Part shown: positions 4,310 to 63,213 of the stretch, piece by piece
Layout: every line of letters starts with the position of its first letter
How positions within the stretch are numbered: position 1 is the stretch's first letter
From: Ehretia macrophylla
Lineage: Eukaryota; Streptophyta; Magnoliopsida; Boraginales; Ehretiaceae
DNA: 64,000 nucleotides
Direction of reading: 5' to 3'
NCBI GenBank assembly: GCA_037974665.1
Contig: CM075770.1
Span: 23,671,501 to 23,735,500, forward strand
The notes under the pieces: generated by a model
Databases searched by the model: none
Told to the model about the DNA's origin: nothing
Seen by the model: the letters and a program-made list of their open reading frames with translations, nothing else
Made by a program: the position numbers and the translations under genes

Positions 4310-4939
4310 TGTGACACCCCGATCCCTCTCGAGACCGGGAGTTCTAACAATCAATCTATTCACAACTCCAAATCCAAACCCGGGCAAGATTTTAGGGAAA
4401 GACGGACACAGTCTCCCCTGTTTCTAGGCAAATTGCAAAACCTGTAATAGCATATAAATGGACCAACACCGTGTCCAACCATTCAACCACCTCAAGGCCA
4501 TCCGAGCCTCGGTTCACAACAAGCAATTCACAAGTAAATATAAATTCAAGCTTAGCAATTAAACTACACCAACCTATTGCATAAAGTAGACTATCATGAC
4601 TTTCTATCTTTTTCCCTTTTTGTCATTACAAATATATATTGAAGTTAAGCTATATTAACTAAATACATAATCTAATGAACTTAAATTACATCCCCTTTAA
4701 CATTAAATACATATAATACATAAAAGCATACAACTTTACAACTTTGACAACTCAAGTCACATAGGCACGCAGTACAACCCTTCAAGCACAGACTTTCACG
4801 AAATCACGAACTTTTCAGCTAACATGGCATTTCCTAAAATGTGGTGGTGAGGAGTGAGTATACACAACACGTATACTCAGTGAGGGCGAGACAAATATCG
4901 AGATGGAGAGAAAGAAGATCGTGCAATGCAAATAGGTAC
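4310..4939 (-). mobile_element. E2 solo LTR, left part
   Basis: This reads TGTGACACCCCGATCC, the reverse complement of the E1/E9-type LTR end, so the LTR lies on the minus strand. Together with 12832-14701 it forms one LTR of about 2495 bp, matching the 2489-bp E9 LTR. There is no internal region and GGTAT flanks both sides, so it is a solo LTR left by LTR-LTR recombination. The covarying hairpin is at 4855-4879 and the acceptor-like TTTTAG ends at 4834 (minus strand). Confidence 0.9.
4935..4939. repeat. E3 target-site duplication, left copy
   Basis: GGTAC precedes E3 and recurs at 12832-12836 directly after it. Joining the flanks restores the uninterrupted E2/E9 LTR sequence. Confidence 0.9.
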
Positions 4940-5433: not shown

Positions 5434-6708
5434 CTGTATGCATGCATTAATAGAGAGTGAGCTTATATACATAAGCCCAGTGAGGATCCGATAGATCTCG
5501 ACAGTATTCACTACGCTCCTTGGATTTAGTCCTTTGAGCAAGTAAACACACAACAACAATAATAATGCTATCATCACATAACAACATAAATAATGCTATC
5601 ATCTCATAACAACATAAATAATGCTATCATCACATAACAACATAAATAATGCTATCATCACATAACTATATAACCAATCAATAAGGATACTCTATTTGGT
5701 GTAGCTCCAAACGCCATCACGATCTCAACCGTTCTTCTTATAACTCCCCATTACTCACGCACCCGAGGTACCTCACTATCCCCTTCCCTCCATGACATCT
5801 CCGTCATGCGAGCTGGGGGTAGCCTATGGCAGTCATGCCGGTTTCAACCCGACAGCCCGACGCTGCCCGAGAGGTGGCACACACATACCAAGGCTCCATA
5901 TTCATCAATCATCATGCAAGCATAAATCGATCAATCAATTGGGAGATCAGCAACAAGAGTGCCCGATTCCCGCATTCAATAATAATCAATCAATATCATT
6001 TTATCATCATCAATAATCATATCATCATTATCAATAACATCAATAATCAATTAAACAACAAATAACGTAGTTAGATGACAAAGTAGGCCATCTAACCGGA
6101 CATGCATTAAACACACAATCAAACCTTAGTTTACCCATCAACAACTCACAATTCAATCACTCAAACCACACCCGGTCAACTAAGGCTCAATTCAATAATT
6201 TAAAGAAAGATAACCTAAACTTCAAATAATCATATCTTACATTCTACTAATCCAAACAACTCCAAATCAATTTCAAACACTCACCCATTCGATCATCTAC
6301 ATTAACCTTATCGGAAACCAACCAAGACACCTCAAAATCAAGCCCAACAACCCTAAAACCTCAAGGCACCTATGCTGAAATTTTTGAATTTTAGCACGGA
6401 CATCACAATCGAAAATTCGGCATTACAACAGCGTTAACACGTAATTATCAAGTATTTAGAAATCGACGGCAATCGATTTCGAGCAACGCAACTCAATTAA
6501 ATCAACTTTGAACATTTTAATCAAAATTAAATACCCGGAAAATAAAAATTATGCTATATCCGACAGAAACTCGTAGTATTAGTATATAATGATCCCTAGC
6601 ATGCAAGGAGCAATAATCTATCATCAGATTTCAATTCTAACGGTTCAATCTTCATTTATACGCAAAAACACAAAAATGACATTTTGAGATCTAGAATTTT
6701 TCTCTCAC
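5434..6708 (-). other. Predicted leader intron in E3 left LTR
   Basis: The donor context CAAAG/GTGAGAG (first intron base 6708) and the acceptor CATACAG/GTG (last base 5434) define a 1275-base intron candidate. The hairpin TGGGCTTAT/ATAAGCTCA (5458-5479, one G-U pair) ends 24 bases before the acceptor. The TATA-like box lies about 220 bases upstream of the donor. The same pairing of sites occurs in the other LTR families here. This is inference from motif conservation; no transcript was seen. Confidence 0.5.
5561..5666. repeat. 28-bp minisatellite in E3 left LTR
   Basis: Three full copies and one partial copy of a 28-base unit beginning AATAATGCTATCATCACA are present. One copy has a C-to-T-type change (ATCTCATAAC). 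The same array is in the right LTR at 10908-11013. The related solo LTR E10 has a single remnant unit near 61409-61437. Confidence 0.9.
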
Positions 6709-10286: not shown

Positions 10287-12831
10287 TGTCATGCCCCAAC
10301 TCGACCCCTCCTATAAACAGTCAGGACGCAACGGAATTTTGGCAGTATAACGACAGTAAATAGGATACCGAGGCTCTAACCCAACCTCATTAGAACATCA
10401 TACACCAAGCTCCACAACCATACAACAAACAACTCCTCAATTAAAAACAACAACATACAACATAATCATATTATACAATAAACCATCCTCGTTATACGCC
10501 TCCGTTCCAACATAATACATGAACTTCAATATACATTGCAAAACATGTTGAAACAAAAGAAAGACTACTAAGACATCATCAACTAATTCATTGACTTATC
10601 AACATCTTATACATTATAAACTACAAAGCAGATAAAAGTCTACTAAGTTAATTTACAAGATAATAAAACATGTACGACATCATGGATAAGACTCTGGAAC
10701 ATATGACTCGTCCACGTAAAGCACATTTTCCACATTCTCCTCTTCACGAGGCACATACCCCTAATCCGGCTCTCCAACACCTGTATGCATGCATTAATAG
10801 AGAGTGAGCTTATATACATAAGCCCAGTGAGGATCCGATAGATCTCGACAGTATTCACTACGCTCCTTGGATTTAGTCCTTTGAGCAAGTAAACACACAA
10901 CAACAATAATAATGCTATCATCACATAACAACATAAATAATGCTATCATCTCATAACAACATAAATAATGCTATCATCACATAACAACATAAATAATGCT
11001 ATCATCACATAACTATATAACCAATCAATAAGGATACTCTATTTGGTGTAGCTCCAAACGCCATCACGATCTCAACCGTTCTTCTTATAACTCCCCATTA
11101 CTCACGCACCCGAGGTACCTCACTATCCCCTTCCCTCCATGACATCTCCGTCATGCGAGCTGGGGGTAGCCTATGGCAGTCATGCCGGTTTCAACCCGAC
11201 AGCCCGACGCTGCCCGAGAGGTGGCACACACATACCAAGGCTCCATATTCATCAATCATCATGCAAGCATAAATCGATCAATCAATTGGGAGATCAGCAA
11301 CAAGAGTGCCCGATTCCCGCATTCAATAATAATCAATCAATATCATTTTATCATCATCAATAATCATATCATCATTATCAATAACATCAATAATCAATTA
11401 AACAACAAATAACGTAGTTAGATGACAAAGTAGGCCATCTAACCGGACATGCATTAAACACACAATCAAACCTTAGTTTACACATCAACAACTCACAATT
11501 CAATCACTCAAACCACACCCGGTCAACTAAGCCTCAATTCAATAATATAAACAAAGATAACCTAAACTTCAAATAATCATATCTTACATTCTACTAATCC
11601 AAACAACTCCAAATCAATTTCAAACACTCACCCATTCGATCATCTACATTAACCTTATCGGAAACCAACCAAGACACCTCAAAATCAAGCCCAACAACCC
11701 TAAAACCTCAAGGCACCTAGGCTGAAATTTTTGAATTTTAGCACGGACATCACAATCGAAAATTCGGCATTACAACAGCGCTAACACGTAATTATCAAGT
11801 ATTTAGAAATCGACGGCAATCGATTTCGAGCAACGCAACTCAATTAAATCAACTTTGAACATTTTAATCAAAATTAAATACCCGGAAAATAAAAATTATG
11901 CTATATCCGACAGAAACTCGTAGTATTAGTATATAATGATCCCTAGCATGCAAGGAGCAATAATCTATCATCAGATTTCAATTCTAACGGTTCAATCTTC
12001 ATTTATACGCAAAAACACAAAAATGACATTTTGAGATCTAGAATTTTTCTCTCACCTTTGATGCGATAAAAGCCTAGGAATGCGTGCAATGCGTGCCCAA
12101 CAAGCGGAATCCAACTCGGTGCGAAGTTTCACGGACAAAAACTAGGTTTTTCTTTGAAAAATTGGATTGAAAAGCTTTGAAATTCTCTTTCTTTTTCTCT
12201 CCTCTTTCTCTCGGCCATGTGTGTGTTTGTGGAGTGTGTTTTGTGTTGTGTGAGTGTGTGTTGATGACAAGGAGTATTTAAAAGCTTGGTCAATTAAAAA
12301 AATGCAAAGTCAAAGTTAGTTTTAATAGGTATTTTTGTGTTTTTAATGACTTTAATTGCATTTTAGTGCTCACCAAGTTAAAAATAATTATGCCACCCCC
12401 AAGATATCTCAAGTGGATTATTTTTAGGTGACAAGAAGTTTTACATTCAAAGAATTCTACCCGAGTCGGCTTAAAACTCGATTTTCGCAAAAGTCGGTGT
12501 AAAAACCCTAATAAATTCTTAAGCCGATTTTAAAACCGTTTTCATCAAACACAGGTCTATTAAAGTCCGTGGACTAGGTCTAGAAGGGTTAAAAAGACCA
12601 GTTTCAAAATTATAGCGGACGTGTTTCGAAAACACTATTCATTGAAAATCGACGATAAAATTTCTGACTCCGTTTTTTATGAAAATTTCATGAATGCACA
12701 TTTAGCACGTATTAGGAGTATTGAAATCAAAATTATAACTTTCTAGGTCCTATAGCACATAAACAGGTCATATGCACGCAAAACGAGACAAAGCACGTAA
12801 AACGAGATAAGCAGAAAAGTGGGGTTTCACA
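10287..12831 (-). mobile_element. E3 right LTR (5' LTR in sense)
   Basis: This is a direct repeat of 4940-7484, offset by 5347 bases with no net length change. It includes the minisatellite (10908-11013), the hairpin (10805-10826), the donor-like site at 12055 and the acceptor-like site at 10781. It ends GGGGTTTCACA and is followed by the GGTAC duplication. In the sense direction this copy would carry the active promoter. Confidence 0.92.
10781..12055 (-). other. Predicted leader intron in E3 right LTR
   Basis: Same donor (AAAG/GTGAGAG) and acceptor (TACAG/GTG) as in the left copy, 1275 bases. As this is the sense 5' LTR, this copy would be the one transcribed into the genomic RNA leader. 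Inference only. Confidence 0.5.
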
Positions 12832-14706: not shown

Positions 14707-15414
14707 AGCTTTGAATGGTTATGTTAATGCTTTTATTAATTGCTTATTGTATTGATTGTTTATATTGATTGCTTACTTGTTAGTTATATTGCTTAACTGT
14801 CTTATTTGCATTGCACGACTTTCTTTCTCTCCACCTCGATATCTGTCTCGCCCTCACTGAGTATACGTGTTGTGTATACTCACTCCTCCCTACCACATTT
14901 CACGAAATGCCATGTTAGCTGGAAAGTTCGTGGTTACGTGAAAGATCGTGCTTGAAGAGTTGTCTTGCGTGTTATGTGGCTGAGTTGTAGAAAGATGCAA
15001 AGATGTATGTTTTCATGTATTGTTTGTATCTAGTGTTAAAAGTTATGTAATTAACTTAACTAGGTTTATTAGAATGGTATGATAGTCTATTTTATGCAAT
15101 AGGTTAGTATAGTTTAATTGCCAAGCATGAATGTACTTGTAAAAGATGAGAAGAGATAGGTTAGCTTGTAAACTGGAAATGTATATTTGCTTGTGTTCGC
15201 TTGTTGAGAACCAAGGCTCGGATGGCCTTGAGGTATTGTATGGTTGGACACGGTGCTGGTCCTCCTATATGCTATTGCAGGTTTTGCATTTTGCCTAGAA
15301 ACATGGGATACTCCATCCGTTTTTCGCTAAAAGTTTTTGCCCGGGGTTTGGAATTGGGTTGTGATTAGATTGATTGATAGAACTCCCGGTCTCGAGAGGG
15401 ATCGGAGTGTTACA
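14707..15414 (+). mobile_element. E1 3' LTR, last part
   Basis: This continues 2271-4309 after the nested E2/E3 insertion and ends GATCGGAGTGTTACA. The hairpin TGAGTATAC/GTATACTCA is at 14858-14882. The acceptor-like site 20 bases later reads TTTCAC here instead of TTTCAG, so this copy would have lost its AG. Confidence 0.9.
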
Positions 15415-16586: not shown

Positions 16587-17905
16587 GTGAGGCTTTTCAC
16601 GTTTTTGTGCATTTATATTCAAATTTGATTTTTGATTCAATTTCTTAGATTTGATATTTAATGCGTTATAATGCTTGAAATCACTTGGAATTTCCTCTTT
16701 AGGGTTCGTAGAGCATTGCTTGTTAGTTATTTAGCGATTTTTACGGTTAGAAATGTAAATTGAATTTAGGCAAGAACGTGAATAGTAAAAATAAATACAA
16801 AAACCCAAGAATTTTGGATTTTTGATTCGAATTGCGATTTCTTGATTTGGATAGGTGCCATTAATGATAGAAAGATAAAATGTGCAATAAAAACGAATCG
16901 GCCTTTGTTAAAATTGGAAATTAGACAAAGAAACGTAAAGGGGCCGTTTGACCAAAAGTTGATCGTGCTCGAATTGAGTTAGGGGTTTTGCTATTGCGGG
17001 CATAGGCACTTTTGGCGCTGTCGTGGAGTTGATTGAGTGACCAGTTAGCATAGCTGTAGTTCAAACGCAGTAGGTGGACTTTCGGGCTTCGGTTGGGAAA
17101 GTGAGGTTTAGTGACATAAAAACGTGCCTTGGAGTGCCTAAGTGAATATAGTGAAATCAGTTTCCTAATCCCGTAGCTCGTTTGCTTGTAATTGCCTTTG
17201 GAAGTTAGAGATTGAATAGTGATATTTGTCGTTTTCGTGTTTGAACTGCTGTTACTTGTTTAATTGGTGTTCTTGTTGCTATTAATGATAGTTATGCTTG
17301 AAAAGTTAATTAAATGCTAATGTTTATTGTAAATGATTGATATCTCGTTTATCGTCACTAATCTGCATTTTCGTGCTATTGCTCGTTTATTGCTTTTATC
17401 TCGTATTGTATTGCATTAGTGTCAGGCGCGTGAGTGATGGGCCTTTCTGGGTAGTCTAGGGCTGCCAGGGTTGGTTTTCTCTAGCTCCGTGTCCTATTCC
17501 CGTTCTCGCTAGGGGTGCCGCCCTAGGAGATTTGGGTCGTAGATGTGTCGGGGTACTTTCGAAGTACACCCAGTGGATGTTATAAGGTGGTTGCGCGCTT
17601 ATTGTCATCGTTGTCAACATCAAGCTCGGGATTGATGTAATGCTCGTGGAATCGAATCGCATGGTACATTGCTCATATGAGTGAACCGTGACCTTCAAAG
17701 TGTGGTATAGCTTTGAATGGTTGTGTTAATGCTTTCTTTAATTGTTTATTGTATTGTCGTTTATATTGAATGCTTTCTTATTGATTATATTGCTTAACTG
17801 TACCTATTTGCATTGCACGATCTTCTTTCTCTCCACCTCGATATCTGTTTCACCCTCACTAAGTATACGTGTTGTGTATACTCACTCCTCACCACCACAT
17901 TTCAG
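16587..17905 (+). other. Predicted leader intron in E4 5' LTR
   Basis: The 1319-base candidate runs from GTGAGG after TCTCT to ACATTTCAG/GAAAT. The hairpin at 17860-17884 (arms TAAGTATAC and GTATACTCA, one G-to-A change at the base) ends 21 bases before the acceptor. Its last bases CTCA followed by C resemble a plant branch site. Confidence 0.5.
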
Positions 17906-21361: not shown

Positions 21362-22696
21362 CTGAAACATGTTAGCGAGGTATGAGCAACCACTGTTGCC
21401 CAGTGAGGGATATAGTCCCGGGGCGTGCAATGCAACAGATAATACAGTTATACAACAATATCACTTAGACAATTTAAGAAGCAATGATAACATAGGTAAC
21501 CACACATTTAAAAGGAAACATTTCACACAATCCCCTATACACCAATCTTCACTGGTCTTCATTCACGATCCACGAACCACGAGCACGATCACGATAAGCC
21601 AGCATAACCCCAAACACTCCAGTGGGTGTACTCCGGATGTACCCCGATAATCCTACGACCCAACATCCCCTAGCAATCTCCGGACCAGGCGAATGAGGGA
21701 CTATGGTACGAAGTTTGAATATCCACCGGCAAGCCCTCTGCCGCCCAGCCGATATTCAACACATCCGCCCCTGACACTATGGTTGCGCAACCACGATGCA
21801 ATGCACTTAACGATGGCAAGTTAATAGCAATAATATAAGCATTAACACATATGAGGATCAACAAAGTAGGTTGACCTCGAGGCAATTAGCATAAAAGCAA
21901 TTATAGAAGCTAATAAGCAGTTTACAAAGGAACATATACAAAATAAGCATAGAATCATACCAAAAGCTCCAAATCGACTTGAAACCACATATAAACACTT
22001 AAGGAGTCATGCCATGGGTTTAGAAGTGTGAGTCAACCGAAATTGCACCTAAACCCCTTTGTTTTTCAAACTATTTCTCTTCCAAACCAAGGTTAATGAT
22101 TCCATTTTCAAAGAAAACTCTCCCAACCTTCTAACTAACCCTCAAGGTACCCTCTCAACCCTCTAACTCATTCAAATGGCTGCGATTACCCCGAAAGCCC
22201 CAAATTCCCTCTTATGGCTTTAAACTACACATACAATGTCCGGGCTTCAAACAAAGGATATCAAGGCTTCTATAGCACCTAGGTAGCCTAAGGATACTAG
22301 AATTGAAGCCCGAATTCACCCGGATTCGCATTAACCCCGAAAGCCCCAAATTAAAGTCGACTATTTTACATTTTTAGCGATTTAAGGACAATACAAGTGC
22401 ACGGGGCTATTAGATTACCTTCACTAGCACCTAAGGCATCTATTAGAAGCCTTTAATCAAGCTAATTCGAGCAATTACGCAAAACCCTAGAAAAACGTCA
22501 CTATTCACCCTAAAAATCAAACTAACGATTCTAACCGTTTAAATTGCGAAACGATGGCTCAAATATGTTCTCTAGCACTCATATACAAGGTATAATAGCA
22601 TAGATAATCAATACAATAGCATTTGAACACATTTTCAACAAATCAAGAAAATAGCAACTATTTTAAAATGCAAAAATAAGCCGTGAAATCCCTCAC
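21362..22696 (-). other. Predicted leader intron in E5 LTR
   Basis: Donor CATTG/GTGAGGG (first base 22696) and acceptor TGTTTCAG/GTG (last base 21362), 1335 bases. The hairpin TGGGCAAC/GTTGCTCA (21383-21402) has a different stem sequence from E1 and E6 but keeps its pairing. It ends 21 bases before the acceptor and is followed by CGCTAAC, a textbook plant branch-site match. Confidence 0.5.
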
Positions 22697-31142: not shown

Positions 31143-31190
31143 GGGACTGTGGACCGTCAACACATAAAGGAATTGTGCCCTCAACATGAC

Positions 31191-32565: not shown

Positions 32566-34384
32566 CTGAGATGATAAAAGAGGGTGAGTCCTTATGAACT
32601 CAGCGAGGGGGAACGAGAAATAAGTTTTGAAACTCATTTTCCGATTCAACTTATGAAAACCCTTTGCAAGCATGAGATATATCACAAGTAAGTTCATAAT
32701 GTAATATAAAAGTAAAAGAACACAATTACCCGTCTTTCCTCCCCGAGGTCCTCTAGGAACCAAGCGAGAGTACTTATACACATAGTAAAAAGGATACGAT
32801 GAGCTTTTGCTCTCAGTTCATTTCCAGTATTAGTTGTTGCGACCGACTTCAAATCATCCCCTTATCACGCCAAATGGGTGTACTCCGGATGTACCCCAAA
32901 ATCCTTCGACGCAACTCTCCGAAGAAGTCTAGTCCCCAAGCGAGAGAGGGAATTGGACAATGGTAGTCACGGTTGTACCAGCAAGCCCGATGCTGCCCGG
33001 TGTGCGTGAAACACTACCATGCCATAATGAAAGGTTGCAACCTTGTATGCAATGCACATTTATGACATTTAATATATCACTTTAGGAGGACAACAAAGTA
33101 GGTTGCCTCCGAGCAGTTATAAGATTGCACATTGACAAGTAAACACGCGAGGCACGATATGACAGGTAATTTCACTTGTAAAGCACATGGAGTTATATGA
33201 ATATTAAATGGGCAGCCATGTAATGCATGTAAATCAAGTCATATAAGTCATTTCGAAGTTCACGTAATCAAATAATAAGGTCATACAACATGCAACGACG
33301 TTTACGTGAGACCGGGTGCAAGAAAGGTCTACTTGTCAACATGTAATCATCGGAATCACATTTAGGGATATAAGGGCAACTACGGGCAGCCTACTAATCA
33401 TAAAATTAAACACGATATCCATAGGATCAACACTTAGCGAGTTTTCCTAGTCATTAGGGTTTCAATTCATGCTCACCCATGCGATTAAGCCCTAAGTTGT
33501 CACGTAATTAAACTCAAGCCATGCAATGATTAATTAAAACATTCTCAAGCATTCAAAATAGTCCACACAACATCCAAGTGCCACAATCCCAAGCATTTAA
33601 TACAACAAGAGAAGTTACAATAATTTTCAAAGCATATCACTAGATGAAAACCTCACTGCAATGATCTGTTTTCTCACAATCATTGAGACAAGCAAACAAT
33701 CTCCAATTGCAGTGAAAAACATGTCAAATTAAATCTTAAGGAGTGAACTAAATCCAGAAACAAACCTCGTATCATTTGGAGTTCGAGTTCAAGAGTTATA
33801 GCCAAAACCGTGAGACTACGCAAAACTGTCCAGATTTGCACACATTTCAATACTTGTCGTTTTTGAGGACCTTAGGGTCAGATTTAGCCTTAGTCTATTT
33901 CTGACAACAATGTCCCGAACTGAAAAATATAGCAGAACACCGAATTTTATGCATTTTGGATATCATTTACTAAGTCAAAACTGGTTCGTTCTACAAGGAT
34001 AGTGAATCTGCCAAAACATGCTTCATTTTCCCAGATTTTCCAGATTTGGACACCTTTCAATGTTTTTCCATTTTGGGGACCTTAGAGTCAAAATTATCTT
34101 TGGCCTATTTCTACGAAAAATACTCAGAACTGGCAAAAATATTCACCTACCAATTTTCACGCATTTTCAACATCATTTACCTAGTCAAAATCACTTCTCT
34201 CCAACAGAACAGAAAGCTGCCAAATACGCGATTTCACCTATCTTCACATTCTAGCCAAATATCTTGCCATGCATGTTTACCAAAGCTCATGTACACACAT
34301 ATATCACAAGTACAGAGGTAAAAATAGACATTTAAAGGCATGAATATGGTTGTTGAAAGCTTGTCAGGAAGTTTTAGCCCTCAC
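32566..34384 (-). other. Predicted leader intron in E6 left LTR
   Basis: 1819 bases from GCTAAG/GTGAGGG to ATCTCAG/GTAAAG. The hairpin TGAGTTC/GGACTCA (loop ATAA, one T-G pair) ends 19 bases before the acceptor. A stronger-looking donor TTAG/GTAAGT 180 bases upstream would give a 1999-base version. Confidence 0.5.
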
Positions 34385-40303: not shown

Positions 40304-43147
40304 TGTCACGCCCCAACCCGACCTATAGAGGTTAGACAAGGGTGTGATCTAAACATTCAAGTCATTTCACGTACTTAATCATTCATGAAGGTTTAATATT
40401 TAACGTTTAGCCTAAACTCCACAAATTCTTCGAAAAATCGGCAGCATAACAGCTGTAATTGGGCTCTTTAGTTTGACCTAATTCTCTAAACGCCTCAAAA
40501 TTTCCAATCTCAATTTCATTTCTAACTAAGATTACTATTTATCATCAATTGAAATGCCTACTGATTGTCTCGAAGTCTCGTTTGATTAATAACCTAGCAT
40601 GATACTATGTCTCATTTTTTTGTAAATCCTTGTTACAAAAGTACCTGTTGATCTTAGCTTAATCATGAGTACCTGCTTAATATTGGATAGATTCATTTTA
40701 CTTAATCCTTTACCTGATACTTCTTAAGCCTGCGATAGATACTAACCAATAGCGATAGCAAAAACAACCATAAGAGTGTCTATATAGTTATGATCAGTAC
40801 AAGCCAAAATTGGACCCCAAATTACAACGGGGGTCATTTACAATACAATAACAAGCAGCATACAAAATAGTCTTCATGCAACATATCGTTCACAAAATAG
40901 CCATAGTCACGTAAGGCACGTTGGGCAAGCAATCATTCCAAGGAATCATCAATAGGCGCGTTGTCCTCAGGTACCTGTTCCTGGTTTTCTTCACCTGAGA
41001 TGATAAAAAAGGGTGAGTCCTTATGAACTCAGCGAGGGGGAACGAGAAATAAGTTTCGAAACTCATTTTCCGGTTCAACTTATGAAAACCCTTTGCAAGC
41101 ATGACATATATCACAAGTAAGTTCATAATGTAATATAAAAGTAAAAGAACACAATTACCCGTCTTTCCTCCCCGAGGTCCTCTAGGAACCAAGCGTGAGT
41201 ACTTATACACATAGTGAAAAGGATACGGTGAGCTTTTACTCTCAGTTCATTTCCAGTATCAGTTGTTGCGACTGACTTCAAATCATCCCCTTATCACACC
41301 AAATGGGTGTACTCCGGATGTACCCCGAAATCCTACGACCCAACTATCTGAGGAAGTCTAGCCCCCAAGTGAGAGAGGGAATTGGTGGTAGTCATGGTTA
41401 TACCGGCAAGCCCGATGCCGCCCGATGTGCGTGAAACGCTACCACGCCAGAATGAAAGGTTGCAACCTTGTATGCAATGCACATTTATGATATTTAATAT
41501 ATCACATTAGGAGGACAACAAAGTAGGTTGCCTCTGAGCAGTCATAAGATTACACATTGACAAGTAAACACGCGAGGCACGATATGGCAGGTAATTTCAC
41601 TTGTAAAGCACATGGAGTCATATGAATATTAAACGGGCATCCATGTAACGCATGCAAATCAAGTCATATAAGTCATTTCGAAGTTCACGTAATCAAATAA
41701 TAAGGTCATACAGCATGCAACGACGTTTACGTGAGACCGGGTACAAGAAAGGTCTACTTGTCAACATGTAATCATCGGAATCACATTTAGGGCTATAAGG
41801 GAAACTATGGGCAGCCTACAAATCATACAATTATACACGATATCCATAGGATCAACACTTAGCGAGTTTTCCTAGTCATTAGGGTTTCAATTCATGCTTA
41901 TCCATGCGATTAAGCCCAAAGTTGTCACGTAATTAAACTCAAGCCATGCATCGATTAATTAAAACATCCTCAAGCATTCAAAACAGTCCACACAACATCC
42001 AAGTGCCACAATCCCAAGCATTTAATACAACAAGAGAAGTTACAATAATTTTCAAAGCATATCTCTAGATGAAAACCTCACTGCAATGATCTGTTTTTCT
42101 CACAATCATTGAGACAAGCAAACAATCTCCAATTGCAGTGAACAAAATTTCAAATTAAAGCTTAAGGACTGAACTAAATCCAAAAACAAACCTTGCATCA
42201 TTTGGAGTTCGGGTTCAAGAGTTATAGCCAAAACCGTGAGACTACGCAAAACTGTCTAGATTTACACACATTTCAATACTTATCATTTTTGAGGACCTTA
42301 AAGTCAGATTTAGCCTTCGTCTATTGCTGACCAAAATGTCCAAAACTGAAAAATCTAGCAGTAAACCAAATTTCATGCATTTTGGATATCATTTACTAAG
42401 TCAAAACTGGTTCGTTCTACAAGGATAGTGAATTTGCCAAAACCTGCTTCATTTTCCCAGATTTTCTAGATTTGGACACCTTTCAATGTTTTGCCATTTT
42501 GGGGACCTTAGATTCAACATTAGCTTTGGCCTATTTCTATGAAAAATGCTCATAACTGGCAAAAATAGTCACCTATCAATTTTCACGCATTTTCAACATC
42601 ATTTACCGGTCAAAATCACTTCGCTCCAATAGAACAGAAAGCTGCCAAATACGCTATTTCACCTATCTTCACATTCTAGCCAAATATCTTGCCATGCATG
42701 TTTACCAAAGCTCATGTACACACATATATCACAAGTACAGAGGTAAAAATAGACATTTAAAGGCATGCATGTGGTTTTTGAAAGCTTTTCAAGAAGTTTT
42801 AGCCCTCATCTTAGCAAGACAACAAAGAAGATGCACAAAACTCTTGATGATGCACAAGGTCGTCCTTTTTTCCTTCCTTAGCCGAGAGACAACTTGAGAT
42901 TCTCTAATTTCCTAGCTTAGTAACCATGTTCTTATTATGTACAAGTGGCTAGAACAAAAGAAAAAGAAATAGGAGCTATTAAACTTACCTAAGCCGAATT
43001 GAACTTGCATGTGTGTCTTTTGCAATCTAGCTTGCTTGGTCGAGATCCTTAGCAACTTGCTTGTCTTGAAGAACCTTAGGATGATGAACTCAAGCTATGG
43101 AGAGTAGAATTTCATCCAAGGCCGAGAGAGAGAGAGAGAGAAGAAAT

Positions 43148-47942: not shown

Positions 47943-48060
47943 GGGTGCGATCATACCAGCACTAATGCACCGGATCCCATCAGAACTCCGAAGTTAAGCG
48001 TGCTTGGGCGAGAGTAGTACTAGGATTGGTGACCCCTTGGGATGTCCTCGTGTTACACCC
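47943..48060 (+). rRNA. 5S rRNA: 5S rRNA copy 18
   Basis: The first 80 bases match the local consensus. Changes GGATTGGTGACC and GGGATGTCC lie in the C box and helix. The 3' end is TTACACCC. Confidence 0.94.
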
Positions 48061-48619: not shown

Positions 48620-48737
48620 GGGTGCGATCATACTAGCACTAATGCACCGGATCCCATCAGAACTCCGAAGTTAAGCGTGCTTGGGCGAGAGTAGTACTAT
48701 GATTGGTGACCCCCTGGGAAGTCCTCATGTTGCACCC
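48620..48737 (+). rRNA. 5S rRNA: 5S rRNA copy 19
   Basis: A box and intermediate element intact. TACTATGATTGG changes the C box. The 3' end TTGCACCC pairs with GGGTGC at the 5' end. Confidence 0.94.
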
Positions 48738-49299
48738 CCCATTCTCAATTTTTTTTGCCCCAATTAAGGTTGCCAAGTTACTTTATCCACCACATTTCTA
48801 TTCCCGAATCCCACGGCACCTTGGGCAAGACAACTTCGCTTCACGTAGAGGCTGGGCCCGCAAACCGAGTGCGTGGGGCTTGTGACCAGGTCTCCGTCTC
48901 TCCGGTGCCCATAACTTTTGATCTGTAATGAGTTACGCAGCGCACAACATACCGTTGGAAAGCTCTCCAAGAGCTCTACGATGGGGGCAAAAAGCCTGCT
49001 CGGCTGCGTCCATTTTTTGAGCCCAAAATTGAATGTTTATATCAGTTTCGAGCTACTTTTCTTCTTTTGCTCTGTTTTTCGTTCCCGGATCATAGGTCGT
49101 GAGATGTTTAAAGGATGACAACCTAACTCGTGGGACATTAGATGGCCCTAAAATGCGTCGATATCACGTCTTGCGAGGATGCTACGTTGTTGAAGCAGAT
49201 GGGTTATCGTTATGCCCATTTGGCCTTTTGAATGGGCCATCTCTCTGGGCTGGGACTGTGAACCGTCAACACATAAAGGAATTGTGCCCTCAACATGAC

Positions 49300-49355
49300 G
49301 GGTGCGATCATACCAGCACTAATGCACCGGATCCCATGAGAACTCCGAAGTTAAG
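49300..49355 (+). rRNA. 5S rRNA: 5S rRNA copy 20, first 56 bases (cut by E7)
   Basis: Consensus except CATGAGAAC. It stops at AAGTTAAG inside the A box, where the E7 LTR begins. The remainder is not in the window. Confidence 0.93.
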
Positions 49356-52300
49356 TGTCACGCCCCAACCCGGCCTATAGAGGTTAGACTATGGTGTGAT
49401 CTAAACATTCAAGTCCTTTCACGTATTTAATCATTCAAGAAGGTTTAACACCTAACGTTTAGCCTAAACTCCACAAATTCTCTAAAAAACCGGCAGCATA
49501 ACGGCTGTAATTGGGCTCTTTAGTTTGACCTAATTCTCAAAACGCCTCAAATTTTCCAACTAAGATTACTATTTATAACCAATTGAAACACCTACCAGTT
49601 ATCTCGAAGTCTCGTTTGATTAATAACCTAGCATGATACTATGTCTCGTTTGTTTGTTTGTCCTCGTTACAAAAGTACCGGTTGATCTTAGCTTAACAAT
49701 GAGTACCTGCTTAAGATTAGATAGGTTCATTTTAGTTAATCCTTACCTGATACTTCATAATCCTATGATAGATACTAGCCAATAACGATAGCAAAACGAC
49801 CATAGTAGTGTCTATCTAGTTATTATCAGTATATGCCAAAATTAGACCCCAAATTACAATGGGGGTCTTTTACAATACAATAACAAGCATCATAAGAAAT
49901 GAAATAGTCTTCAAGTAACATATTGTTCACAAAATGGCCATAGTCAAGCAAGGCATGTAGGGCAAGCAATCAATCCAAGGAATCATCGTTAGGCACGTTG
50001 TCCTCGGGAACCTGTTCCTGATCTTCTTCACCTGAGATGATAAAAGAGGGTGAGTCCTTATGAACTCAGCGAGAGGCAACGAGAAATAAGTTTTGAAACT
50101 CATTTTCAAGTTCAACTTATGGAAACCCTTTTTGCAAGCATGAATGTATCGCAAGTAAGTACATAACGTAATGTAAAAGTAAAGGAACACAATTACTCGT
50201 CTTTCTTCCCCGAGGTCCTCTAGGAACCAAGCGTGAGTACTTATACACATAGTGAAAAGGATACGGTGAGTTTTTGCTCTCAGTTCAATTCCAATATCAG
50301 TTGTTGCAGCCGGCTTCAGTTCTTCCCCTTATCACGCCAAATGGGTGTACTCCGGATGTACCCCAAAATCCTACAACCCAACTCTCCGAGGAAGTCTAGC
50401 CCCCAAGCGAGAGAGGGAATTGGACAATGGTAGTCACGGTTGCACCAGCAAGCCCGATACTGCGTTAACGCTACCACGCCAGAATGAAAGGTTGCAATCT
50501 CGTATGCAATGCACATTTATGACATTTAATATATCACATTTGGAGGACAACAAAGTAGGTTGCCTCCGAGCAGCCATAAGATTTCACATTGACAATTAAA
50601 CACGCGAGGCACGATATGACAGGCAATTTCACTTATAAGGCACATGGAGTTATATGAGTATTAAATGGGCAGCCATGTAACGCATGTAAATCAAGTCATA
50701 TAACTCACTTCGAAGTTCACGTAATCAAATAACAAGATTATTCAACATGCAACGACATCTACGTGGGACCGGGTGCAAGAAAGGCCTATTTTTCAACATG
50801 TAATCATTGAAATCATATTTAGGGCTACAAGGGTAACTACGGGCAGCCTACTAAACACATAATCAAACACAATATCCATAGGATCGATACTTAGCGAGTT
50901 TACCTAGCTACTAGGGTTTCAATTCGTGCTTACCCGTGCGATTAAGCCCCAAGTTGTCTCGTAATTAAACTCAAGCCATGCATTGATTAATTTGATCACC
51001 CTCAAGTATTCAAAGCAGTCCTCACAACATCCAAATGCCACAATCCCAAGCACTTAATGCAACAAGAGAAGCTACAAAAATTTTTCTATGCATATCCCTA
51101 GGTGAAACCCTCACTGCAATGGACTGTTTCTCACATTCATTGAGACAAGAAAAAAATCTCCAATTCCAGTGAACAAGATGTCAAATTGAAGCTTAAGGAG
51201 TGAACTAAATTCAGAAACAAACCTCGCATCATTTGGAGTTTGGGTTCAAGAGTTATAGCCAAAACAGTGAGACTACACAAAACTGTCAAGATTTGCACAC
51301 ATTTCAATACTTGTTGTTTTTTAGGGCCTTAGGGTCAGATTTAGCCGTAGTCCATTACTGACAAAAATGTCCAGAAATGAAAAATATAGCTACACACCAA
51401 ATTTAATGCATTTTGCATACCATTTACTAAGTCAAAACTGGTTCATTCTACAAGGTCAGTGAATCTGCCAAAACCTGCTTCATTTTTCTAGACTTTCCAA
51501 ATTTGGACACATTTTTATAATTTGCCATTTTTAGGACCTTAGAGTTAAAATTAGCTTTGGCCTATTTCTATGAAAAATTCTCAGAACTAGAAAAAATAGT
51601 TACCTACTAATTTTCACGCATTTTCAACATCTTTTACCCGGTCAAAATCACCTCGCACCAACAAGGCAGAAGGCTGTTACATACCCGATTTCATCTATCA
51701 TCACATTCTAGCCAAAAATCTTGCCATGCATGTTTACAAAAACTCATGAACACACATATATCACAAGTACAGAAGTAAAGATAGACATTTAAGGGCATGC
51801 ATGTGGTTTTTTGAAAGATTTTCAAGAAGTTTTAGCCCTCACCTTAGCAAGACAACAAAGATGATGCACAAACTCTTGGTGAAGCACAAAGTTGATCTTT
51901 TCCTTGCTTAGCCGAGAGACCACTCGATTTTCTCTAATTTCCTAGCTTAGTAACCAAGTTCTTAGTAGGTGCATGTGGTTAGAACAAGAAGAAAACGAAA
52001 TGGGAGCTAACAAACTCACCTAAGCCGAAATGGATGTGCTAAAGGCTTGCATGTGTGCTTCTTTGCTCCTAGTTTTGCTTGGTCGAGATCCTAAGCTTCT
52101 TGCATGTCTTGATGAACCATTGAGTGATGAAGTTAATCTATTGAGTGGAGAAACTCAGCCAAGGCTGAGAGAGAGAGAGAGAGAAGAATGAGAGGAAATG
52201 AAAGAAAATGAAAGAAAATGAAAGCTTTGCAACGTTTGAAGCTTGTGTCGGCCTAGGGCCTTGCAAAAATATGATTTTGTGTCTTCAAGAAGCATCATTT

Positions 52301-53815: not shown

Positions 53816-56800
53816 TGTCACGCCCCAACCCGACCTATGAAGGTTAGACTAGGGTGTGATCTAAACATTCAAGTCATATCACGTACTTAATCGTTCAAGA
53901 AGGTTTAACACTTAACGTTTTAGCCTAAACTCCACAATTTCTCCAGAAAAACCGGCAGCATAACAACTGTAATTGGGCTCTTTAGTTTGACCTAATTCTC
54001 TAAATGCCTCAAATTTTTCAATCACTATTTCATTTCTAACTAAGATTACTATTTATCACCAATCACAACGCCTACTAGTTATTTCGAAGTCTCGTTTGAT
54101 TAATAACTTAGCATGTTACTATGTCTTGTTTGTTTGTTAATCCTCGTTACAAAAGTACCTGTTGACCTTAGCTTAACAATGAGTACCTGCTTAAGATTGG
54201 ATAGGTTCATTTTACTTAATCCTTACCTGATACTTCACAATCCTATGATATATACTAGCCAATAACGATAGCAAAACGACCATAGTAGTGTCTATCTAGT
54301 TATGATCAGTACAAGCCAAAATTAGACCCCAAATTATAACGGGGGTCGTTTACAATACAACAACAAGCAAAATAAGAAATGAAATAGTCTTCAAGCAACA
54401 TATTGTTCACAAAATGACCATAGCCAAGCAAGGCACGTAGGGAAAGCAATCATTCCAAGGAATCATCGTTAGGCACGTTGTCCTCGAGTACCTGTTCCTG
54501 ATCTTCTTCACCTGAGATGATAAAAGAGGGTGAGTCCTTATGAACTCAGCGAGGGGGAATGAGAAATAAGTTTTGAAACTCATTTTCCGGTTCAACTTGT
54601 GAAAACCCTTTTTGCAAGCATGAATATATCACAAGTAAGTACATAACGTAATGTGAAAGTAAATGAACACAATTACCCGTCTTTCCTCCCCAAGGTCCTT
54701 TACGAATCAAGCGAGAGTACTTATACACATAGTGAAAAGGATACAGTGAGCTTTTGCTCTCAGTTCATGTCAGTATCAGTTGTTGCGGCCGACTTCAAAT
54801 CATCCCCTTATCACGACAAATGGGTGTACTCCGGATGTACCCCGAAATCCTATGACCTAACTCTCCGAGGAAGCCTAGCACCCAAGCGAGAGAGGGAATT
54901 GGACAATGGTAGTCACGGCTGGGTCGGCAAGCCCGATGCCGCCGGGTGTGCGTGAACGCTACCACGCCAGAATAAAAGGTTGCAACCTTGTATGCAATGC
55001 ACATTTATGACATTTAATATATCACATTTGGAGGACAACAAAGTAGGTTTCCTCCGAGCAGTCATAAGATTGCACATTGACAGTTAAACACGCGAGGCAC
55101 GATATAACAAGTAAATTCACTTGAAAAGCACATGGAGTTATATGAATATTAAACGGGCAGCCATGTAACTCATGTAAATCAAGTCATATAACTCATTTCA
55201 AAGTTCACGTAATCAAATAATAAGATTATTCATCATGCAACGACATCTACGTGGGACCGGGTGCAAGAAAGGCCTACTAATCAACATGTAATCATCGAAA
55301 TCATATTTAGGGCTACAAGGGCAACTACGGGAAGCCTACTAAACACATAATCAAACACAATATCCAAAGGATCAATACTTAGCGAGTTTACCTAGTTACT
55401 AGGGTTTCAATTCGTGCTTACCCGTGCGATTAAACCCCAAGTCATCTCGTAATTAAACTCAAGCTATGCATTGATTAATTCGAACACCCTCAAGTATTCA
55501 AAGCAGTTCTCACAACATCCAAATGCCACAATCCCAAGCATTTAATGCAACAAGAGAAGCTACAAAAAATTTTCTAAGCATATCACTAGGTGAAACCCTC
55601 ACTGCAATGGACTGTTTTCTCACATTCATTGAGACAAGAAAAAAATCTCCAATTCCAGTGAAAAAGATGTCGAATTAAAGCTTAAGGAGTGAACTAAATT
55701 CAGAAACAAACCTCGCATCATTTGGAGTTCGGGTTCAAGTGTTATAGCCAAAACAGTGAGACTACACAAAACTGTCCAAATTTGTACATATTTCAATACT
55801 TGTCGTTTTTGAGGGCCTTAGGGTCAGATTTAGCCTTAGTCCATATCTGACAAAAATGTCCAAAACTGAAAAATATAGTAGCACACCAAATTTCATGCAT
55901 TTTGGATATCATTTACTAAGTAAAAATTGGTTTGTTCTACAAGGTCAGTGAATCTGCCAAAACCTGCTTCATTTTTCCAGACTTTCCAGATTTGGACACA
56001 TTTTGATAATTTTCCATTTTGAGGACCTTAGATTCCAAATTAGCTTTGGCCTATTTCTGTGAAAAATTCTAAGAACTGGAAAAACTAGTTACCTACCAAT
56101 TTTTACGCATTTTAAACATCATTTACCTAGTCAAAATCACCTCGCACCAACAAGGCAGAAGGCTGTCACATACCCGATTTCATCTATCATCACATTCTAG
56201 TCAAATATCTTGCCATGCATGTTTACAAAATCTCATGAACACACATATATCACAAGTACAGAAGTAAAGATAGACATTTAAAGGCATCCATGTGGTTTTC
56301 AAAAGCTTTACAAAGAAGTTTTAGCCCTCACCTTAGCAAGACAACAAAGAGATACACAAACTCTTGAGGATGCACGAGATTGACTCTTTTCCTTGCTTAC
56401 CCGAGAGACAACTTGGGATTTCTCTAATTTCCTTGCTAAGTTACCATGTTCTTAGTAGGTGCATGTGGTTAGAACAAGAAGAAAATGAAATGGAAGCTAA
56501 CAAACTCACCTAAGCCGAATGAATGTTCAATGAGCTTGCATGTGTGTCTCTTGCACTCTAGCTTTGCTTGGTTGAGTTCCTTGGTAGCTTGGAGGTCTTG
56601 AAGAGCCTTAGGATGAAGAACTTAGCTATGGAGTCTACAATATTCAGCTAGGGCCGAGAGAGAGAGAGAAGAAATGAGAGGGAGAGAGAAGAATGAGAGG
56701 AAATGAGAGAAAATGAAAGAAAAATAAAAGCCTTGCAATGTTTGAAGCTTGTGTCGGCCTAGGGCCTTGCAAAAATCTGATTTTGTGTCTTCAAGAAGCA

Positions 56801-57537: not shown

Positions 57538-57964
57538 TGTGATACCCCGAACCTGGCATGTATTCAATAGCATTTTAAGTTCATTTAAATTGCATTTTAT
57601 TGACCTTTCACCTTCTTTGACCAAACTAGTTGACTTTTCATCTACATTGACCAACTAGGACAAGGTGGGAATTTTTGAAATGTTTAATAAAAGGCAAACT
57701 TGGGATTAGAAATAAAAAAATGCAATGTTAAGTTAGTCAAATTTTGGGTCAACTTTGGAATTAAATCTGAACCAATTGGGGAAGAGTTAGGTATCTAAAT
57801 ATATATGGTTGGAAATCTCTATGAGTCTAGTTTATGAGGGTTCAAACCGTTCATGAATTGGAGTTTTCTAGAAGAAGTTATGGCCCTTTTCGTGAGGTCG
57901 CGCATAGCTGTTTTGGTTTAGCGGGTTGACCGAATTTTGACCTTTGACTTCTTGACATTTTTTT

Positions 57965-57974
57965 TTTAAATAAG
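57965..57974 (+). promoter_or_regulatory. TATA-like box of E9 LTR
   Basis: TTTAAATAAG after a T run, about 180 bases upstream of the donor-like site, the same spacing as in E4. Confidence 0.45.
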
Positions 57975-58145
57975 CAGAATGTGCACGAAAAAAACAGAGA
58001 GAAAAAGGCTTGAAACCATGAGGAAAATAAGGAGAAAAAAAAAAAGAAAATCTCAACTTCAAATCTTCGATTCTTCGCGTGGGCTTGTGCGGGGTGGTTT
58101 TCGAGGCACTCTATGAGGTTTTCCTAGCGTCGAGGAGCGTCTAAG

Positions 58146-59430
58146 GTGAGGGAAGCATGTTATTTGCGCATTTATACGTTGTATATGTTAACTTTGTCAA
58201 TTTTTAAATTTATCCGTAGATCGTTATTTAAAGTGATTTGATGCTTCTAGAATGTTCCTTAGCATTTGTAGAACATGTATTTATAGCTTTGTAACATTTT
58301 TTGCGGTTAAATGTTGTGATTGCAAATTAAATTGTGAAATAAATAGTGTTTTATGAATAGTAAAACCTTGAAACGTTGAAATTGCGCTGTTATGCTTTCC
58401 GTTGATGTAGAAACGTGCTGGGTATGCTAAAATGTGTGGTTTGTTTGGGTTGCGTAGTGGAAAAAATGAGAATTAAGCCTTTGGGAAAGTTGGGGTCATT
58501 TTGGTCGACTTTTGCGTTTTCTCGTTTTGCGTGTTGGCATTGCTTCGGTAGGCCATGGATGCACTTTTGGTGCGATTATGGCGTTGGTTGGGTGTTTGGT
58601 TGATATAGTTGTAGTTCAAACGAGAAAGGGAAAAATCGGGGCTTTGCGCGAGTTCTAGGGTAAAGTAAGGTTTCGGGGTCTTTAGACGTGCCTTATGGTA
58701 ACCTAGGAGGGTTGGCGAAGTCGATTTCCAGAACTCTTGGCTCGTTTGGAAATGGTAGCATTTTGATAGTTGGGGCCGATTTGTGTTTTTGTGTGTTTTC
58801 TTGTCTTTATGCTTATAGAATGTTTAGAATTACTTGGAATACTTGTTTGAGTTGTTTTGGATTGAATTACTTATCAAATTGCTGCTATTGCGTGCGAGAG
58901 TAACCTACTTTGTTATTCTTTCACGTGTGGCTTTATCGCTTGTTTATCGCCTTGTATCGAGTCTTGCATTGCATAGTGTCTCACGCGTGAGTGATGTGCC
59001 TCTCTGGGTAGCCTTGGGTTGCCAGTGTTGGTTGCTCTAGCTCCGCTGCTATTCCCTTTCTCGCTTGGGTTGCCTCTCAGGGAGATTTGGGTCGTAGGAT
59101 TGATGGATACTTCCGGGGTATTCCAAACTGGTGTTATAAGGTGGTTTGGGCCGGCGCGTCATCGTTAAAGTCATCGGAATCGTGATCGGTACATTACTCG
59201 CTCGAGTGAACCATAGCCTTCAAAGTGTGGTATAGCTTTGATTGGTTGTGTTAATGCTTTCTTTAGTTGTTTAATTGTATTGTTGTTTATATTGAATGCC
59301 TTTTATTCATTGTAGTGCTTAACTGTACCTATTTGCATTGCACGATCTTCTTTCTCTCCAATTCGATATCTGTCTCGCCCTCACTGAGTATACGTGTTGT
59401 GTATACTCACTCCTCACCACCACATTTCAG
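58146..59430 (+). other. Predicted leader intron in E9 LTR
   Basis: 1285 bases from GTCTAAG/GTGAGGG to ACATTTCAG/GAAATG. The perfect 9-bp hairpin TGAGTATAC/GTATACTCA (7-base loop) ends 21 bases before the acceptor and its closing strand supplies CTCAC, a plant branch-site-like motif. Clearest example in the window. Confidence 0.55.
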
Positions 59431-60026
59431 GAAATGCCCTGTTAGCTGGAAAGTTCGTGATTTCGTGAAAGTCCGTGCTTGAAGAGTTGTCTTGAGTGCC
59501 TATGTAACTTGAGTTGTCAAAGTTGTCAAGTTGTATGCTTTTATGTTGTATGTAATTATTGTTAAAAGAAATGTAATATAAATCTAGCTATGTAGTTGGA
59601 ATGGTTTGACAACTTAGATTATGTATATAGTTAATGTAGCTTAACTTCAATGCATGGCTGTAATGTCCAATGGAAAAGAATTAGAATCGCATGATAGTTT
59701 ATTTTATGCAGTAGCTTTGTATGGTTTAATTGCCTAAATTGAATGTACTTGTCAAAATGAAAAGATAGGTTAGTTTTTAAATTGGAAATGTATGTATACT
59801 TGCTGAGTTTAAATTGTTGAGAACCGAGGCTCGAATGGCCTTGAGGAAGTTTTGTATGGTTGGACACGGTGGTGGTCCATTTATATGCTATTACAGGTTT
59901 TGCATTTCGCCTATAAACAGGGGAGACTCCGTCCATTTTCCCTGAAAATTTTGCCCGGGTTTGGTTTGGGTTGTGATTAGTTTGATTGATAGAACTCCCG
60001 GTCTCGAGAGGGATCGGGGTGTCACA

Positions 60027-60782
60027 GGTGGTATCAGAGCTTATTTAGCTCATAAGCCGGGACAGGGTCCTCGGTCTGGTGGGTAGTGACCCTTAAATGT
60101 GTGCTTGTTAAGTGTGTCTTGAAAGTGTATGCTTTTATGTGAGATTATGTGTCTTGACATGAATGTGTGCTCCTATGTGATATAGTTATGTGTTATGTGT
60201 TAATTGTGTGCTAAGTGAAGTAAAGTGTCTAGTTGTGCATTGAATTGACCTATCGAATCGACCTCGTGGATTGTTATTTGCTTGAAGTATTGCTTTTAAT
60301 GTGTGTACTGAAATGTCTTGAATTAGCTATGCCTTTATTTGAATTGATTATGCTGTGCTTGACTTGATTGTTATGCTTGAGTGACTTTGTTAAATAAACT
60401 ATATTGTAAACTTGCTGGCATAATAGCTTAATGCATATGTATAACTGTGATATATTGGCATTCATACATGTCCTATTGAAATGGTAAGTAAGTCATCTTC
60501 CTCCCCTGAAGAAAGTGGTTCACTGCTGGCTTTTCAAGGTGTATGGATTGGCAGGAAATGAATGGCATTTGACTAGCCTTTATTTGGGAATTGGTGATTG
60601 CTTTTGGAGCTCGGTTATTGGCGAATCCCTTTGGTCCTTCTCTATGCTTAACAGTTGCGAAAGAGTAGCTTTCTCTTGGGGTTTTAATTGGGTGTTCTCT
60701 GGAACATTCTTTGGTTTTCATAACGGGTGTTCTTTGGGGACTTTTGTTGGCACTTCTCGGTGGACTTGGTTAATGGGATTTC
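60027..60782 (+). mobile_element. E9 internal region, first part
   Basis: The primer-binding site TGGTATCAGAGC is at 60029-60040. The GT-rich leader and the start of the T-rich block match E1 and E4. It is interrupted at 60783 by E10, three codons into the frame that corresponds to the hydrophobic frame of E1; here the first codon is ATG rather than TTG. No gag-pol. Confidence 0.9.
60778..60782. repeat. E10 target-site duplication, left copy
   Basis: ATTTC, repeated at 63214-63218. Confidence 0.9.
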
Positions 60783-63213
60783 TGTCACGCCCCAACTCGA
60801 CCCCACCTACGATCAGTCAGGACGCAACGGAATTTCGGCGGCATAACGACAGTAAACAGATTTCCGAGGTTCTAAACCAACCTCATTAAACATCATACAT
60901 CCAATAATTCCTCAATACAAACGATAACATACAACACAACCAATATATACAATAAAACATCTTCGTTATACGCCTCCGTTCCAACATGACATACAATACC
61001 TCAATTTATAATACATTTCAAAAGTAAGTTGAGACACAACTACAACTTAACCATAGACGAAAGAAAGCCACTAAATTAACATCATTTGGATCATCATCTT
61101 TTCAATATCTATTACACTAAGAACCGTAAAGCATATAAAGTCTATTAAACTAATATACAAGACATTTAACAACATAGAATCATGGATAAGACTCAGGGAC
61201 ATATGACTCATCCACGAAAGGCACGTTTTCCACATTCTCCTCTTCAGGAGGCACGTACCCGTAATCTTGTGAAAGTACACCTGAAACATGCATTAATAGA
61301 GAGTGAGCTTATATACATAAGCCCAGTGAGGATCCGATAGATCTCGACAGTATTCACTACGCTCCTTGGATTTAGTCCTTTGAGCAAGTAAACACACAAC
61401 AACAATAATAACATAAATAAAGCTATCATCACATAACTATATAACCAATCAATAAGGATACTCTATTTGGTGTAGCTCCAAACGCCATCACGATCTCAAC
61501 CGTTCTTCTTATAACTCCCCATTACTCACGCACCCGAGGTACCTCACTAGCCCCTCCCTCCATGACACCTCCGTCATGCGAGCTGGGGGTAGCCTATGGC
61601 AGTCATGCCGTTATCAACCCGACAGCCCGACGCTGCCCGAGAGGTGGCACACACATACCAAGACTCCATATTCATCAATCATCATGCAAGCATAAATCAA
61701 TCAATCAATTGGGAGATCAGCAACAAGAGTGCCCGATTCCCGCATTCAATAATAATCAATCAATAACATCAATATAACATCAATATTAAATTAAACAACA
61801 AACAACGTAGTTAGATGACAAAGTAGGCCATCTAACCGGACATGCATAATATACATAATTAAACTCTAAATTACTCAACAACAACTCACCATTCATCACT
61901 CGAACACTACCCAACCATCTAAGGCATCGTTCAAGAAATTAAAGAATGACAACCTAAACTTCTAAAATTCATAACTTACAATCTACTAATCCAAACATTG
62001 CCAAATCAGTTCCTATCACTCACCCATTCAACCTACTACATTAGCCCTCTCGGAAATCCACCATAACACCTCCAAATCATGCCCGATAACCCTAAAACAC
62101 TATTCCGTCATGGATGGATTTTCCGGATTTTCACACGAACAATGTAATCGAAAATTCGGCATTACAACAGAGCTAACACGTAATTATCAAGTATTTAGAA
62201 ATCGACGGCAATCGATTTCGAGCAACGCAACTCAATTAAATCAACTTTGAACATTTTAATCAAAATTAAATACCCGGAAAATAAAAATTATGCTATACCC
62301 GACAGAAACTCGTAGTATTAGTATATAATGATCCCTAGCATGCAAGGAGCAATAATCTAACATCAGATTACAATTCTAACGGTTCAATCTTCATTTATAC
62401 GCAAAAACACAAAAATGACATTTTGAGATCTAGAATTTTTCTCTCACCTTAGATGCGATATAAGCCTAGGAATGCGTGCTATGCGTGCCCAACAAGCAGA
62501 ATCCAAGTCGGTGCGAAGTTTCACGGACAAAAACTAGGTTTTTCTTTGAAAAATTGGATTGAAAGCTTAAGTTTTTCTCTTCTCTTTTCTCTCCTCAAAC
62601 TCACGGCAATGTGTGTGTGTGTGATGGTGTTTTTGTGTTGTGTGAGTGTGTGTAGGTGACATTAGCTTATAAGGTCAATTATTTAATTAAAGTCAAAGTT
62701 ATTTTAATAGGTATTTTTGTATTTTTAATGACTTTAATTGCATTTTAGTGCTCACCAAGTTAAAAATAATTATGCAACCCCCAAGATATCTCAAGTGAGT
62801 TATTTTTAGGTGACAAGAAGTTTTACATTCAAAGAATTCCACCCGAGTCGGCTTAAAACTCGATTTTCGCAAAAGTCGGTGTAAAAACCCTAATAAATTC
62901 TTAAGCCGATTTTAAAACCGTTTTCATCAAACACAGGTCTATTAAAGTCCGTGGACTAGGTCTAGAAGGGTTAAAAAGACCAGTTTCAAAATTATAGCGG
63001 ACGTGTTTCGAAAACACTATTCACTGAAAATCGACGATAAAATTTTTGACTCCGTTTTTGATGAAAATTTCATGAATGCACATTTAGCACGTATTAGAAG
63101 TATTGAAATCAAAATTATAACTTTCTAGGTCCTATAGCACATAAACAGATCATATGCACGCAAAACGAGGTAAAACACGTAAAACGAGATAAGCAAGAAA
63201 GTGGGGTTTCACA
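60783..63213 (-). mobile_element. E10 solo LTR (E3 family)
   Basis: 2431 bp, TGTCACGCCCCAACTCGACC to GGGGTTTCACA, related to the E3 LTRs but lacking the minisatellite expansion. ATTTC on both sides and no internal region show a solo LTR. Hairpin at 61304-61325. Its right 1050 bases are nearly identical to E3; the left part is more different. Confidence 0.94.
61281..62447 (-). other. Predicted leader intron in E10 LTR
   Basis: 1167 bases from ATCTAAG/GTGAGAG (62447) to TGTTTCAG/GTG (61281). Hairpin TGGGCTTAT/ATAAGCTCA ends 23 bases before the acceptor. The acceptor here is TTTCAG as in E5 and E9, while E3 has TACAG. Confidence 0.5.

Follow-up and report, generated by a model that had tools for sequence, protein, structure and literature searches.

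The window, that is the whole stretch of 64,000 nucleotides analysed here, raises the question of whether a small hairpin repeated in several of its long terminal repeats (LTRs) marks the end of an intron inside the LTR, and whether such a structure could divide the RNA of a retrotransposon between message and genome. We interpret the window as plant DNA in which an array of 5S rRNA genes has been invaded by LTR retrotransposons. All 19 matches of an Rfam scan of the window are 5S rRNA, and neither the hairpin nor the conserved block described below matched any Rfam family there at gathering score. Four Ty3/gypsy LTR families (F1-F4) carry the hairpin on the acceptor side of the putative intron. 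The F3 element of the window has reverse transcriptase, RNase H and integrase domains in gypsy order, and LTR ends of the form TG..CA together with a primer binding site (PBS) are present, as in Ty3/gypsy LTRs. A chromodomain-like end of pol, read by eye, raises the question of membership in the Tekay (Del) chromoviruses. In blastn comparisons the LTRs of the different families are alike mainly within a block of some hundred bases; the 3' ends of F1 and F4 are alike as well.

Several observations concern the arrangement of these elements. The 5S array, whose units measure about 678 bp, is broken by F3 LTR elements (window 24208-31943 and 43890-49375), and at 53816 an F3 LTR end abuts integrase-like coding sequence of a different element, a nested insertion. 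Between the F2 LTRs at 10295-12831 and 60783-63213, nearly identical segments alternate with segments that have diverged strongly, a pattern like that left by recombination, and open reading frames lie in part of the F1 leader and internal region (60500-60790). Genome-wide, F1 and F4 matches recur at fixed spacings of about 4.2-4.3 kb and 3.6 kb, which suggests short, non-autonomous elements; in places (C7 39.85 Mb, C6 74.14 Mb) three successive LTR matches follow at this spacing. Two DNA patterns and an RNase H protein revealed no plant relatives among viral contigs. One pattern match among genome contigs, located in a bacterial contig, was taken for chance.

The pattern C[CT]C[AG]CT[GA][AG]G, 6-30 bases, CTCA yielded 12 sites across the four families in the window (Table 1) and 15 when twenty 10-kb stretches of this genome (1.58 Gb) were drawn, a sample that is not fully random since at least three of the stretches (L013, L015, L020) had been placed on already known F1 copies. 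Further copies were added with a looser pattern. The TGRG...CTCA hairpin after CCTCRC, which the first-pass annotation had reported for ten sites of the window, is thus confirmed, and the distances given there between stem end and AG apply as well: 19 (F3), 21 (F1, F4), and 23 and 24 (F2) nucleotides.

Table 1. Positions of the F1 LTR features and of all hairpin copies in the window
Feature	Positions	Strand	Remarks
F1 LTR	57538..60026	+	2489 bp; PBS TGGTATCAGAGC at 60029 follows
Leader exon 1	57998..58145	+	start guessed from TATA-like AAATAAG near 57968; donor end from junction match
F1 LTR intron	58146..59430	+	GTGAGG ... CAG, 1285 nt; from donor and acceptor sequence and junction match
Conserved block between families	58890..59430	+	3' end of intron; from blastn between LTRs and block comparison
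Second hairpin	58892..58925	+	constant loop CCTACTTTG; loop core 58904-58912
F1 hairpin	59385..59409	+	scan site 59380; TGAGTATACGTGTTGTGTATACTCA after CCTCAC; AG at 59429-59430
Putative branch site CTCAC	59406..59410	+	A 59409 is 21 nt before last intron base
Exon 2 start	59431..59468	+	F1 short frame GNALLAGKFVIS, then stop
F1 hairpin copy	17860..17884	+	scan site 17855; reads TAAG, one outer (second) pair broken
F1 hairpin copy	14858..14882	+	scan site 14853; AG lost, CAC versus CAG in others
F1 hairpin copy	4855..4879	-	scan site 4884
F2 hairpin copy	61304..61325	-	scan site 61330
F2 hairpin copy	10805..10826	-	scan site 10831
F2 hairpin copy	5458..5479	-	scan site 5484
F4 hairpin copy	21383..21402	-	scan site 21407
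F3 hairpin copy	32585..32602	-	scan site 32607
F3 hairpin copy	41014..41031	-	scan site 41036
F3 hairpin copy	50051..50068	-	scan site 50073
F3 hairpin copy	54531..54548	-	scan site 54553

Since the outer TGRG/CTCA letters are fixed by the scan pattern, only the inner stem tests pairing. One hairpin from each window family was taken, giving 19 inner pairs in total; none of 200,000 shuffles of the inner parts equalled this sum. In an alignment of 12 rows, 10 of them distinct (A3), 98.7% of the cells hold standard pairs, as compared to 19-59% when the partner is slid by 1-3 columns. Measures of covariation were divided in this alignment, the relatedness of whose rows inflates covariation counts: the covariation score is 0.333 versus 0.160 in shuffles (0/500 as high), whereas neither the number of pair types (481/500 as high) nor that of pairs changed on both sides (218/500 as high) exceeds the shuffles. 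The original statement that inner stem bases vary between families while pairing, G-U included, is kept nevertheless agrees with the shuffles, with A3 and with 13 distinct hairpins tabled by hand. In the latter, pair 5 is T-A or C-G, pair 6 A-T, T-A or T-G, pair 7 T-A, A-T or C-G, and pair 8 A-T, G-T, C-G, T-G or T-A; two hairpins of family F5 have T/T at pair 8 and stems one pair shorter. The case for the hairpin is covariation, not folding energy, which is only moderately low (z -1.2 to -3.1 in six stretches with the hairpin). We regard it as very likely that the hairpin acts as RNA.

A donor of the form G/GTRAG (the slash denotes the splice site) lies at a family-typical distance upstream of the hairpin in 9/12 window copies and 12/15 sampled copies. 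In the three window copies without it (scan sites 14853, 17855 and 4884) the LTR match ends before the donor position is reached; the sampled copies without donor are L023 and two in L024. The distance from donor to hairpin is 1.1-1.3 kb in F1, F2, F4 and F5 (the latter in L011) and 1.76-1.96 kb in F3. Donors mostly read AAG/GTGAG or G/GTGAGGG, in F3 also TAG/GTRAGT, and F3 has a second donor-like site. On the opposite side CTCAY closes the stem, with its A paired to the initial stem T, and YAG follows after 19-24 nt, a distance common for branch sites. CTCAY is what we take to be a fair branch-site match, not the best plant branch motif, and other candidates such as TTAAT in F2 are present; CTCAY, a match in sequence, is somewhat more likely than not to be the branch site. 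The T content is 23-28% in the 150 nt before the donor as opposed to 34-39% in the intron, in agreement with the U-rich introns described in PMC3735527; the 600 nt after the acceptor (33-40%) show no contrast with the intron.

The most direct evidence for splicing comes from an LTR that has lost the predicted intron. The exon-exon junction of F1 was fixed in advance as a pattern of 27 letters, and the entire genome (1.58 Gb) was searched with it at up to two mismatches, a limit that would miss older intron-less copies. There was a single match, with 0 mismatches, and none for the reversed control. The matching locus (L033:745-2107) is an LTR of 1363 bp that starts with TGTGATAACCC, ends with GGGGTGTTACA and is flanked on both sides by ATGGG, a 5-bp target-site duplication. 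It aligns with positions 486-609 (88%) and 1892-2489 (86%) of the window F1 LTR, the overlap being the shared AGG; for the part corresponding to positions before 486 there is no alignment with that LTR. The matches stop at LTR position 608/609 and resume at 1892/1893, exactly the predicted splice sites. The simplest reading would be a solo LTR left by an element whose RNA template lacked this intron. The acceptor-like AG is accordingly supported as an intron end, as proposed in the first-pass annotation, at least in F1, the one family with an intron-less LTR so far and with one such copy. Within the window, exon-exon junctions of all four families were absent at up to 4 substitutions. From the junction match and the exact loss of the intron it follows that the intron inside the F1 LTR is, or was, spliced, and we consider the LTR intron almost certainly real. 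Since AAGG and CAGG share AGG, some room is left for a deletion by microhomology. Alternatively, the palindrome might function at the DNA level, for instance by binding a protein in the LTR promoter, or the block might be a promoter element, the intron-less LTR having arisen by chance deletion. This microhomology, and the palindromes and TATA-like letters in some copies (F2), would fit such an assumption, which we nevertheless hold to be very improbable because the inner letters of the stem change between families while pairing persists, with G-U pairs too, because the deletion ends precisely on predicted sites and because in other families a coding signal begins at the same AG. At least 40 F1 copies contain the intron: out of 1450 candidates the best 40 were scored, and every one of them matches along the full 601 bases. 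At least 40 intron-containing copies and a single intron-less one are what would be expected if unspliced RNA were the usual template.

We propose a mechanism in which an LTR GT-AG intron of about 1.2-2 kb is held back by the hairpin, unspliced RNA being genomic and spliced RNA being message. Transcription would start upstream of the donor, CTCAY at the hairpin foot would serve as the branch site, and the folded stem would slow its recognition such that part of the RNA is left unspliced. This part would retain the structured block as a label and would be the genomic RNA copied by reverse transcription, while the spliced RNA would be translated as message. As a whole, we give this mechanism an even chance; the role of the stem as a splicing brake, taken separately, is a tentative assignment that falls somewhat short of that. 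It is also conceivable that the hairpin aids splicing, by presenting the branch site or by shortening the path to the AG, and that the intron mainly lifts expression from the LTR promoter, an effect that introns in the leaders of plant genes can have. The anatomy would be the same (leader exon, donor, U-rich intron, short distance between CTCAY and AG), and hairpin and splice sites are both retained in most copies. Neither the conserved structured block nor the rarity of intron-less LTRs is explained by a helper function alone, and we consider this alternative unlikely.

The conserved block is part of the proposed sorting of message and genome; neither it, with its second hairpin, nor the coding 3' exon belonged to the first-pass observation on this hairpin. 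It would stay in unspliced RNA and might therefore be a natural label for genomic RNA. With respect to a possible packaging signal, the block lies in the intron such that unspliced RNA alone would keep it, and it contains covarying hairpins, the structure being deduced from sequence. A second hairpin is predicted about 500 nt before the acceptor; its loop CCTACTTTG is constant and its stem changes (GTTAGATGG/TCATCTAAC, GGAGGCAA/TTGTCCTCC, GAGGTCAA/TTGATCCTC, GAGAGTAA/TTATTCTTTC and GGGAATCAA/TTGATTTCCC). The loop occurs in 26 distinct sequences, 23 of which were kept as candidates. For 20 of these at most 4/300 shuffles fold as well, and for the remaining three 9, 14 and 17 of 300 are as good. 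Three loop matches were rejected: L022 has no fold, L020 at 4001 is equalled by 150/300 shuffles, and L029 at 463 folds but, judged by eye, sits in another repeat. RNAalifold predicts 55 pairs for six block sequences, 13 of them changed on both sides, with a small covariation term (-1.7 of -44.6 kcal/mol), and a fold of the entire block is tentative. On the minus strand of L020, at about 1800-2100, a foldable unit near GGGAATCGGGCACTTTCGTTGCTGATCTCCC is repeated several times inside an F2-type LTR block.

Downstream of the AG, F2, F3, F4-type and F5 copies share one phase, with one base contributed by the preceding exon, and read into acidic peptides (GVAEPDYGYVPPEEENVENV..., GEEDQEQVPEDNVPNDDSLE, GDAEGDPQLVDLVEEEEVQIEPLP and GVVEADPIEVIEEEEQVEVFP) followed by a stop. 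Codon positions were compared in 17 chosen copies (5 F2, 6 F3, 4 F4-type, 2 F5). Left out beforehand were the F1 copies and the window F4 copy, which has another short frame, furthermore, because of early stops, one copy each of F2 and F3, and two copies whose acceptor is lost. Differences at codon positions 1, 2 and 3 number 87, 93 and 212 (212/392 at the third position), counted over pairs that are not independent. Silent exceed replacement single changes in F2 (59:38), F4-type (24:6) and F5 (4:0), whereas F3 shows the contrary (20:36). Judged by this pattern, the 3' exon is a coding exon for a short acidic peptide in four families.

Exon 1 was rejected as coding partner of the acidic exon, its phase-1 frame having stops or no consistent ATG, and the acidic exon in the 3' LTR would therefore more likely be joined to an upstream coding donor. 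The end of pol was discarded (donor-like sites in three elements, differing phases, joined frame soon stopping, as judged by eye), as was a donor near the gag start, where phase-1 G/GT occurs in four elements within glycine codons and is likely chance. In two gag-pol frames the highest score under an approximate matrix falls on the strong donor CCAG/GTAAGG in PGKA codons, in phase 1, and the F3 candidate is CCCG/GTAAAG; the PGKA-codon donor as a partner is a lead only. These candidates, the same-phase acidic peptides with their third-position excess and the lack of a consistent in-frame ATG in exon 1 would suit the view that the AG is mainly the acceptor of the 3'-LTR coding exon, that splicing from gag-pol yields a shortened, acidic-tailed protein, and that the hairpin controls this subgenomic RNA, leader splicing being a by-product. 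However, in the sole junction found exon 2 is preceded by the leader exon, the PGKA motif is conserved in the protein, so that its donor may be chance, and replacement outnumbers silent changes in F3. We regard this view as distinctly unlikely. A combined scheme appears doubtful, though less so: in a group of plant Ty3/gypsy elements, an LTR intron with genome label and branch-gating hairpin would sort message from genome and the same acceptor in the 3' LTR would give rise to a subgenomic acidic-tail protein.

In retroviruses a donor lies in the leader with the packaging signal behind it, and splicing removes the signal, thus parting message from packaged RNA. Here, on the other hand, donor, structured block and acceptor are all located inside one LTR. 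According to a 2025 review, plant LTR elements are generally without introns, the exceptions being Ogre and EVADE (PMC12786077). Ogre, likewise a plant Ty3/gypsy element, carries an intron that is spliced in part (PMC12786077, PMC6317226). Arabidopsis EVADE, in the same review, also produces a subgenomic RNA by splicing, but it is a Ty1/copia element and its protease region, not the LTR, is spliced (PMC12786077). The 104-nt intron at the start of the pr domain of barley BARE1 resembles the LTR intron in being a facultative GT-AG intron associated with separate RNA pools for translation and packaging; unlike the latter, it belongs to a Ty1/copia element and lies outside the LTR, and the part of the source on this intron describes no hairpin (PMC3735527). 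Cer1 of C. elegans is another LTR element that has to export unspliced beside spliced RNA, yet its export protein is encoded by the spliced RNA according to the same review (PMC12786077), and nothing comparable is shown here. No published description of an intron inside a plant LTR with such a hairpin was found in the literature outside subscription, to which the search was mostly confined. Partly spliced introns in plant LTR elements are thus already known; the combination of intron and hairpin within the LTR would be new.

For only a few plant LTR families is it known how a single transcript is shared out between translation and reverse transcription. An LTR intron that combines conserved RNA structure with a 3' coding exon makes this division directly testable. 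It would explain why a conserved block persists amid otherwise fast-changing LTRs and would change the annotation of LTRs and of solo-LTR transcripts. In these families, the LTR intron may help to separate message RNA from the RNA that is copied into new insertions.
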